NCBI GenBank assembly: GCA_018711035.1
Contig: DVIU01000121.1
Location: 1 to 35,403, forward strand
Source: Candidatus Scatousia excrementigallinarum
GTDB lineage: Bacteria; Cyanobacteriota; Vampirovibrionia; Gastranaerophilales; Gastranaerophilaceae
DNA: 35,403 nucleotides
Direction of reading: 5' to 3'
Position numbers and translations under genes: made by a program. The notes under the pieces are model-generated. The model did not search any database. It worked only from the letters and a program-made list of their open reading frames with translations, and had not been told where the DNA came from. This document shows, piece after piece, positions 3,610 to 35,403 of the stretch (position 1 is its first letter; the number at the start of each line of letters is the position of its first letter).

Positions 3610-4293
3610 ATGAAAACATATCAGGGATTTACACTTGCTGAAGTACTGATTACACTGGGAATTATAGGAATTGTTGCTGCAATGACCCTGCCTGCACTAA
3701 CCGGCAGTTATAAAAATCAGGAAAGAAGCGCAAGGGTTAAGAAATTTTATTCGATGATGTCACAGGTAATACTGCTATCAGAAAATGAAAACGGCCCGAT
3801 TGAATATTGGGAAAAGGGAGCCGGCGACATAAAAAATGAAGACGGAGAACATGATATGCACCAAAATGGGAAAGAATGCCAGCAATTTTTTTACAAATAT
3901 ATAAAAAAATACATAAAGAATTTAAAAAGCGAAACCGCGGAAAATAATGAAAGCCTTTGTGAATACAAAATAATCTTTGCAGACGGCTCATCATTATGCG
4001 CACATAACGGGAAATGCATGGATTTAATATACGATATAAACGGTGAAAAACAGCCCGATAAAGAGGGATATGACCGATTTCGCTTTATAATATGCACCGG
4101 AAATGATAATGCAGTAGATGATGCCGTATTACGCTGCGGCAGTAAAGATAAAAGATTTTGTACCTACGGACCTAACATATATAAAACAAGAGAAACAGCT
4201 TATAATGCTTGTAAAACAGCTCCTGCATATTGTAGTACTTTATTACAATATGACAATTTTGAATTTAAGAAGGATTATCCTTTCAAATTATGA
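3610..4293 (+). CDS. Type IV pilin/pseudopilin-like protein with a Cys-rich C-terminal domain
   Basis: GFTLAEVLITLGIIGIVAAMTLPAL prepilin cleavage/methylation motif, 9 Cys in the C-terminal part, GGAGG RBS. Confidence 0.85.
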   Translation: MKTYQGFTLAEVLITLGIIGIVAAMTLPALTGSYKNQERSARVKKFYSMMSQVILLSENENGPIEYWEKGAGDIKNEDGEHDMHQNGKECQQFFYKYIKKYIKNLKSETAENNESLCEYKIIFADGSSLCAHNGKCMDLIYDINGEKQPDKEGYDRFRFIICTGNDNAVDDAVLRCGSKDKRFCTYGPNIYKTRETAYNACKTAPAYCSTLLQYDNFEFKKDYPFKL

Positions 4294-32413: not shown

Positions 32414-33406
32414 ATGGATAAGTATGATTTAGTAATCTTTTGTAAAACGTTTATACGTGATATTGATTGTTTTCTTATACAGGCTCAATCTGTAAAGGAA
32501 TTTAATGTTGATAATATTCCGTATTATATTTCTGTTCCTTCTGAAGATATTGGCGAATTTGAAAAACTAAAAGAAAAATATGCTCTTACATATCAAATTC
32601 TTGCAGATGAAGATATATCTGAACTCTTAACTGAAAATGATTATAAGGATTCGGCACATAACGTAAGCTATATTAATCAACAGTTAGTTAAATTTGAATT
32701 TAGCCGGATGAATATTGCAAAACACTATATAGTTATGGATGGAGATTGTTACTTTATCAGAAATTTCTATATATCTGATTTTTTGTTAGACTCAAATACC
32801 CCGTACATGCCATTAACAGAAGGAATAAAAGGAGATAGAATCCTATTTCAACTTTTCTCCCACTCAAAACGCAGTCATAGAGCAGCTAACAGCAATGGGG
32901 GGGGGGGCTCATCCAAAGTTTTTATTGGAAGAAAAGGAAAGTATTATACTATAGAAATGCCGTTTGTCATAACTTCGTCCTACGTTCTCGACTTTGTTAA
33001 CAATTTTTTGAAAAATGAAAAAAATATGACGCTAAAAGATACATTAATGAAGTATCCATGTGAAATGCAACTGTATGTAGATTATGTTTTATATAAAAGA
33101 TTTAATTATCAAGCCTGCAATGCATTTTTTATGCCGAATCATATGGAAACCATGTATCAAATTTGCAGATGGCTGGGCTATGATACTGATTTAATCGCTC
33201 AGAATTATCTGGGCATTCTGATGAACAAAGGTTATGTAAAATCATTAAAGTTTAAACCAAATTTTATTGGAAAATATATCATCAGAAATATTATAAGATT
33301 TCATCATAAAATATCAAAACAAAGAGTTCCGATACACGTAAAACTCTTATTGGGAATTATTCCGGATAAAAATCTAAGAATAAAAATCAGGAATTACCTC
33401 AGATGA
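32414..33406 (+). CDS. DUF6492-like glycosyltransferase-type protein containing a poly-G tract
   Basis: [77 protein letters not shown]; next to gmd and another glycosyltransferase. Confidence 0.75.
32897..32907 (+). repeat. 11-nt G homopolymer within the coding sequence
   Basis: AAT GGG GGG GGG GGC TCA: eleven consecutive G in an AT-rich gene. Confidence 0.97.
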
Positions 33407-33494: not shown

Positions 33495-34583
33495 ATGAAA
33501 AAAGCTTTAATAACAGGGATAACGGGGCAAGACGGCTCATATTTGGCAGAATTACTTCTCGAAAAAGGTTACGAAGTTCATGGGATGAAAAGACGAGCTT
33601 CTTCTTTTAATTCTTCAAGAATTGACCACCTTTATCAGGATATTCATAATAAAGATGCTAAATTTAAACTTCATTACGGCGATTTAACCGACAGCTCAAA
33701 TATAATAAGGTTAATTCAGGAAATTCAACCCGATGAAGTTTATAATCTTGCGGCACAATCCCATGTTAAAGTTTCTTTCGATTGTCCTGAATACACAGCC
33801 AACGCCGACGCTCTTGGTACATTAAGGATATTAGAGGCAATAAGAATTTTAGGTTTGGAAAAGAAAACCAAATTCTATCAGGCTTCAACATCAGAACTTT
33901 ACGGAATGGTTCAGGAAATCCCACAAAAAGAAACAACTCCCTTTTATCCGCGTTCACCGTATGCCTGCGCGAAACTTTATGCTTACTGGATTACAGTAAA
34001 TTACCGTGAAGGTTATGACATCTACGCATCAAACGGTATACTCTTCAACCATGAGTCACCTCGCCGCGGAGAAACTTTTGTAACAAGAAAAATTACAAGA
34101 GCCGCAGTTAGAATTAAACTCGGACTTGAAGACAAATTATACCTTGGAAATCTATCCTCCAAACGTGACTGGGGACACGCAAAAGACTATGTGGAAGGCA
34201 TGTGGAGAATCTTACAGCAGGATAAGCCGAAAGATTATGTTCTTGCAACAGGTGTAACTACAACTATTAGAGATTTCTGTAAAATGACCTTTGCTGAACT
34301 GGGAATTGATATTGAATTTAAAGGAAAAGGTGTTGACGAAGTCGGTATTGATAAATCCACCGGAAAAGTTGTGATTGAAGTTGACCCTCGTTATTTCAGA
34401 CCGACTGAAGTAGATTTGCTGCTCGGAGATTCTACTAAAGCAAGAGATGAACTCGGCTGGAAACCTAAATATGACTTACCGGCTCTTATAAAAGAAATGG
34501 TTCAAGAAGATTACGCCGAAGCAGAAAAAGAAAAGTTCCTGCGTAAAGAAGGTTATGAAATTTTAATACCTCAGGAAGTTTAA
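33495..34583 (+). CDS. gmd: GDP-mannose 4,6-dehydratase
   Basis: [75 protein letters not shown]. Confidence 0.97.
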
Positions 34584-35403
34584 ATGAAGCAGCTCCTTTT
34601 TATAGGTCATGAATTTCATAAAAAAACAAAATCAGCAGATTTCATTAAAGATTTACTGGCATTAAGATATAATGTTGAATGCTATTATATAAATCCATCG
34701 GAAAAATACTCATTTGAAAATCTTGCAGACAAAGAGTACGATGTTCTTATTTTGTGGCAGGTAATGCCGTCACTGAAAGAATTGCATAAATTTATTACAT
34801 TTCAGCACTGTGCATTTTTCCCGATGTATGATAATACAAAAACTTTGAACAGTTCTTTGTGGAACGAATATACTGAGTGCAATATTATTAATTTTTCAAA
34901 AACTTTCCACAAAACCTGTCAGGCCGGCGGATTATCAAGCTACTACATCCAATATTTTCCGGAACAGGCAGAAATTTTTAATTATGGCGAAGAAGATTCC
35001 GTTTTTTTCTGGCAAAGAAGCGAAAAAATTACAACTAAAACTATAGAAAAAGTTATTAATGTTGGCAAAATTAATAAATTGTACTTGCATAAAAGTACAG
35101 ATCCGGATAATAAATTTAAACAACCTGCAAAAAAATGGAAAAATAAAGTTATTTATTCAACGTGGTTTGACACAAAAGAAGAAATGCAAAATTATATCCA
35201 GCAGTCAGCAATTTATTTTGCACCACGCAAGTACGAGGGCATAGGCATGAGTTTTCTTGAGGCAATGGCAGCAGGAAGATGTGTTATTGCACCTGACTAT
35301 CCTACAATGAATGAATATATTAAAAACGGAGAAACAGGATATTTATATAATTTCAAAAGACCACAAAAAATAAAATTTGATGATATAAGAAAAATTCAAA
35401 AAA
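34584..35403 (+). CDS. Glycosyltransferase (GT4-like), truncated by the window edge
   Basis: Open frame from the ATG at 34584, directly after the gmd stop, to the window end; APRKYEGIGMSFLEAMAAGRCVIAPDYPTMNEYIKNGETGYLYN donor-site motif. Not in the ORF track. Confidence 0.85.
   Translation, partial: MKQLLFIGHEFHKKTKSADFIKDLLALRYNVECYYINPSEKYSFENLADKEYDVLILWQVMPSLKELHKFITFQHCAFFPMYDNTKTLNSSLWNEYTECNIINFSKTFHKTCQAGGLSSYYIQYFPEQAEIFNYGEEDSVFFWQRSEKITTKTIEKVINVGKINKLYLHKSTDPDNKFKQPAKKWKNKVIYSTWFDTKEEMQNYIQQSAIYFAPRKYEGIGMSFLEAMAAGRCVIAPDYPTMNEYIKNGETGYLYNFKRPQKIKFDDIRKIQK

Follow-up and report, generated by a model that had tools for sequence, protein, structure and literature searches.

The genome from which the window derives carries about 100 poly-G tracts, most of which lie in the leaders of type IV prepilin-like genes and are one G out of frame. 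This arrangement is probably the work of slipped-strand phase variation acting on a very large pilin repertoire and a few surface-glycan genes, with most of the switches OFF. Replication slippage that adds or removes one G would join or split the leader and the pilin body. With most genes one G off, a cell would make few pilins at any moment, and the set made would be renewed by slippage. The window is the whole stretch of DNA that was analysed (35,403 nucleotides) and is the entire contig C64 of G000, an assembly of 2.81 Mb and 304 contigs (completeness 99.8%, contamination 7.8%). It belongs to the Gastranaerophilales, which are uncultured, non-photosynthetic gut Cyanobacteriota. The 11-G tract of the window (G11) would be one of the roughly 100 slippage switches spread across this genome.

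The tract lies in the first of three neighbouring genes:

32414 to 33406, + strand: 330-aa DUF6492 protein, probable glycosyltransferase with a conserved DGDCYF motif (family match and orthologue)
32897 to 32907, + strand: G11 tract, in frame, coding for Gly162-Gly165; no other G/C run in the window exceeds 6
33495 to 34583, + strand: gmd, GDP-mannose 4,6-dehydratase (PF16363, E 6e-159); also adjoins the orthologue in G002
34584 to 35403, + strand: group-1 glycosyltransferase, open at the contig end (PF00534, E 2e-16)

The tract cannot be due to chance, as the window holds four overlapping G8 matches against 0.09 expected from dinucleotide shuffles, and none of 100 shuffles reached four. It occupies nt 484-494 of an open reading frame with 30% GC, and the assembled gene is in frame (ON). 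An earlier reading made from the sequence only had given this position and translation exactly. Recomputing the products gave 330 aa for G11, 195 aa ending in RSRLC for G12, as that reading had it, and 179 aa for G10; here its length was right but the ending is KESIIL and not GESIIL. The gene does stand beside gmd and a glycosyltransferase gene, as had been noted. The only family match of the protein itself is DUF6492 (E 1e-7), so that glycosyltransferase is a putative assignment. A search of PDB chains with the protein gave no relevant match; GREMLIN-1 (E 0.0019 among 177,635 chains) was set aside as a probable chance match. A single-sequence structure model (pLDDT 37) was too poor for use.

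An orthologue with 73% identity is present beside gmd in G002, a genome of the same genus, and keeps the DGDC motif. It has no tract and its loop is unrelated, hence the window tract is young and lies in a variable loop that tolerates change. What the comparison shows is that the tract arose recently, not that a structural Gly loop is fixed there. The sequence-only reading had held that homologues lacking the homopolymer, with the same Gly-rich loop encoded by mixed codons, would speak against a switch; the G002 orthologue does lack the tract, but its loop is not rich in Gly and is not conserved either.

Across G000 we counted 100 tracts of G9 or longer by one pattern and 102 by its reverse, compared with approximately 1.2 expected under a first-order Markov model of window composition. 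Among the 99 distinct tracts collected, 73 were G11, 14 G10, 6 G9 and 6 G12. Seventy-six precede a prepilin motif and about 10 others share this leader, with a contig end intervening or the motif not recognised, which gives about 86 tracts in prepilin-type leaders. The contingency locus proposed from the window gene is thus plausible, given some 100 similar tracts in the genome including those in glycan genes. The dominant targets are nevertheless prepilin leaders, and surface-sugar genes account for only a small part of the set.

Tract counts among the 59 genomes searched ranged from 0 to 116 inside the family and were mostly 0-6 elsewhere in the order. Most of the other records that show such a leader with its tract carry the label Candidatus Gastranaerophilales or Melainabacteria. 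A high count does not always denote the same system, because the tracts examined in G025, which has about 90 of G8 or longer, lack prepilin leaders: none was recognised among 27. Most of these (L316-L345) belong to a dispersed repeat in which G10 is followed by TAAACCGCTCATACCAAAGGTTTTGGCGATTTTTT, often downstream of a ATGGCAGAT... start. A search of viral contigs with one fixed-spacing pattern found no tract-bearing prepilins. One G9 tract of G000 (L117, contig C282) adjoins a lipoprotein-like gene (MKKLFSITLLSIISLFCACNNEDE...) resembling those of Bacteroidota, and the assembly may have acquired this contig by contamination.

At least 125 prepilin motifs occur in G000, and at about 50 of these no tract was seen. 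Where a tract is present it lies some 30 nt after the start codon, in the leader before (G/A)FTLAEVL. The usual order is a GGAGG ribosome-binding site, often with a TATAAT-like box upstream, then ATG, mostly 29-34 nt, the G tract, a spacer and (G/A)FTLAEVLITLGIIG. The spacer is often 16-30 nt, extends up to about 160 nt and is longer in a few genes. An open-frame leader reads, for example, MQKIDIARIS-GGG-QRRTLTGK-GFTLAEVL. The window itself contains a tract-free member of the same large family, which is the natural comparison for those with tracts:

3610 to 4293, + strand: prepilin-like gene with leader MKTYQ before GFTLAEVL (PF07963 N_methyl, E 1e-6; TIGR02532)

Members share the (G/A)FTLxE cleavage/methylation motif and a hydrophobic helix after a short leader. 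TIGR02532 is above cut-off for two of them, and PF07963 is above cut-off for the prepilin-like protein P0002 and below it for a tract-bearing member. The genome encodes a prepilin peptidase (one PF01478 match, E 3e-10). A single-sequence model of P0002 (pLDDT 40) was too poor for use. These are type IV prepilin-like proteins, which may assemble into pili.

We then scored the frame of each gene as the tract length that opens the frame from start codon to pilin body, which was possible for 71 genes of G000. Six were in frame, 64 were at +1 (one G too many, mod 3) and one was at -1. G009, of the same genus, gave a similar result (4 in frame, 39 at +1, 1 at -1), as did G021 from another genus (5, 19 and 0), although the in-frame deficit in G021 alone is not significant (p 0.14). 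In G033, from a third genus, the direction was reversed, with 4 genes in frame, none at +1 and 31 at -1. A set of genes from scattered MAGs comprised 2 in frame, 16 at +1 and 26 at -1. The out-of-frame genes of G000 do not look like decayed pseudogenes, since 62 of 65 keep bodies of at least 150 aa; bodies were likewise intact in 40/40 such genes in G009 and 19/19 in G021.

The actual length follows the frame. In G009 and G021, genes with ON lengths of 8, 9, 10, 11, 12 and 13 have tracts mostly of 9, 10, 11, 12, 13 and 14, respectively, and in G000 length and frame are associated (Fisher p 2e-5), the p values here being guides because paralogues depend in part on one another. We therefore rejected a preferred length of purely mutational origin as the sole cause, as length tracks frame (n = ON+1 for ON 8 to 13). 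Stops 2-3 codons past the tract in the resting frame are found in G000 and G033 and weakly in G009, and resting-frame stops in G021 show no difference between classes; immediate stops thus fit as a reason for the resting frame in only some of the genomes. A different start codon, with which G11 would be the real ON length, was also discarded: in representative leaders checked by hand, the downstream frame has upstream stops and no ATG, GTG or TTG before the tract. No allelic copies of differing tract length within their own MAG were seen among the fetched loci. Contig breaks at tracts were not taken as a sign of polymorphism, because near-identical leaders and poly-G artefacts also break contigs.

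Comparison of G000 with G009 points to rapid change in the family. At sites common to both genomes the flanks mostly show 77-87% nucleotide identity on one or both sides, and in many pairs (among them L121/L284, L129/L248, L091/L217 and L076/L253) the pilin gene between matching flanks fails to align. Leader and tract are both kept in L065/L283, and L080/L255 are true orthologues with 72% protein identity whose tracts are G11 in one species and G12 in the other. When G000 pilins are compared with the fetched G009 loci, the best protein matches have a median identity of 40%, a lower bound on similarity given that the G009 locus set is incomplete. At syntenic sites, then, the pilin gene is often replaced between species, and the family is fast-changing.

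Outside the prepilins, four glycan genes of G000 bear tracts:

GT92-like protein: G9, in frame
Polysaccharide pyruvyl transferase: G10, in frame at 9 or 12, i.e. one G off
Pseudaminate cytidylyltransferase: G11 in the C-terminal tail
Group-1 glycosyltransferase of 1052 aa: G9, in frame

The first and last are the further tract-bearing glycosyltransferase genes for which the sequence-only reading had proposed a genome screen. Locus L134 (tract at 3174 of contig C20) encodes a protein of some 490 aa that matches no Pfam family. Its leader tract is G11 but the frame is open at G10 or G13, and so it is one G out of frame, as the pilins are.

For the window gene alone, the G11 may have no role as a switch and have expanded incidentally, without effect on fitness, in a variable loop. 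We regard this as possible but rather unlikely. It would agree with the unrelated, tract-free loop of the 73%-identity orthologue and with an assembled state that is in frame, unlike most pilin tracts. G11 is, however, the modal switch length of the genome (73 of 99 tracts), other glycan genes carry tracts including one that is out of frame, and a one-base slip of either sign cuts the protein off in mid-sequence.

For the system as a whole, we count in favour of phase variation the approximately 100 tracts, their nonrandom frames, the intact bodies, the turnover of pilins, the prepilin peptidase and the tracts in glycan genes. The pilus switch of Bifidobacterium breve is a measured precedent (PMC9187656). 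As slippage would have it, tracts are far more numerous than chance allows, and a one-unit change breaks or restores the frame in both the window gene and the pilin leaders. Against it, plain phase variation predicts about one third of genes in frame and both OFF frames, whereas one OFF frame is near-exclusive in each lineage and its direction differs between genera. The in-frame assembly and tract-free orthologue of the window gene also count against a switch there. MutL is present in the genome, which counts against slippage and led us to reject MutL loss as a cause of unstable tracts.

The near-exclusive OFF direction is left unexplained by simple phase variation or by the B. breve precedent, and two readings remain. 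Tracts may toggle between the ON length and its neighbour, with lineage-specific slippage bias and selection against expression, or they may be recoded. Under programmed recoding the tracts would be purposely one G off, and RNA polymerase slippage or ribosomal frameshifting would yield full-length pilin, so that many pilins are made at a low, set level with the DNA unchanged. This is a live rival, albeit an unlikely one. It accords with +1 in 122/139 genes of G000, G009 and G021 (and -1 in 2), with -1 in 31/35 G033 genes, with a length that tracks frame rather than one preferred value, with the resting-frame stops within 2-3 codons of the tract in G000 and G033, and with the intact gene bodies. 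A single mechanism, however, misfits the reversed direction in G033 and many other MAGs. Toggling is favoured because every genome examined has some in-frame genes, because genera differ in direction and because DNA slippage works the pilus G tract that has been studied best (PMC9187656). Similarly, we consider it improbable that the dozens of prepilins per Gastranaerophilales genome are purposely one G off and expressed by G-tract recoding or by a direction-biased slippage machinery, which would be a genome-wide expression system based on recoding in place of ordinary phase variation.

It is very improbable that a consensus miscount of one G conceals tracts that are really in frame: poly-G runs are hard to sequence, and artefact-like runs of 52-53 G at G009 loci near contig ends urge caution with MAG poly-G counts, but some genera are shifted to +1 and others to -1 (also among records whose NODE and k127 contig names suggest short-read assemblers), lengths 9 to 13 are all shifted alike, a synthetic G11 control gave about 0.5% additions and 2.7% omissions, too little to move a consensus (PMC9187656), and the existence and position of the tracts would stay unexplained.

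Poly-G contingency loci are already known; what is new here is some 86 leader tracts in one prepilin family, mostly one G off. The closest parallel is with bbr_0113 and bbr_1889 of B. breve, also a gut commensal, which have G10-11 near the start of pilus genes and, in the reference, are out of frame and stop early (PMC9187656). There the reference G11 is out of frame and G10 in frame, pili are visible when the genes are in frame, and the productive (ON) length is enriched in mice (PMC9187656). B. breve has two such loci with sortase-dependent pilins, whereas here, in another phylum, type IV prepilin-like genes bear the tract in the prepilin leader, dozens of them to a genome, and the direction bias is lineage-specific. 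Switching has been demonstrated in B. breve and is inferred here.

As in the Campylobacter phasome, many poly-G tracts lie in an AT-rich genome within surface-gene coding sequence, with G on the coding strand (PMC6321876). For C. jejuni genomes the median is about 20 phase-variable tracts, lengths 9-10 being commonest, and the ON share in a draft set is near neutral expectation (PMC6321876). In contrast, here there are about 100 tracts, mostly G11 (13 in G021), concentrated in one gene family, and the ON share is 5-21%. In the main Neisseria species a genome carries 15-19 poly-G tracts with a modal length of 9-10, and homopolymer tracts there (pilC, pgl) control type IV pilus biology and pilin glycosylation (PMC5953494). 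In Neisseria, however, pilE/pilS recombination generates the diversity of the pilin and pilC holds the pilus tract, whereas here the tract is in the prepilin leader of dozens of genes. A full-text literature search found no report of such a repertoire, which is weak evidence of absence as most subscription journals were outside its coverage.

If the phase-variation reading is true, this repertoire, from an uncultured class of gut Cyanobacteriota, would rank with the largest phase-variable ones described for a single gene family. Gene callers are then predicted to overlook or shorten most of these pilins, since the consensus is out of frame, and single cells to differ widely in their surface pilins. 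The strict off-by-one direction, opposite between genera, poses a testable question, namely DNA switch or recoding.

Two variants of the leader were also seen. In 4 of 76 G000 genes (L077, L084, L100 and L048) a separate start and ribosome-binding site follow the tract, and the second ATG opens a short leader of the MKKFAFTLAEVL type. It is as if a poly-G leader had been set before an ordinary pilin gene. In G033, six loci (L197, L200, L205, L208, L213 and L215) have poly-C of 10-11 on the coding strand where paralogues have poly-G, as in MLKNKNARLA-PPP-...AFTLAEVL, which suggests that leader tracts may have arisen independently.
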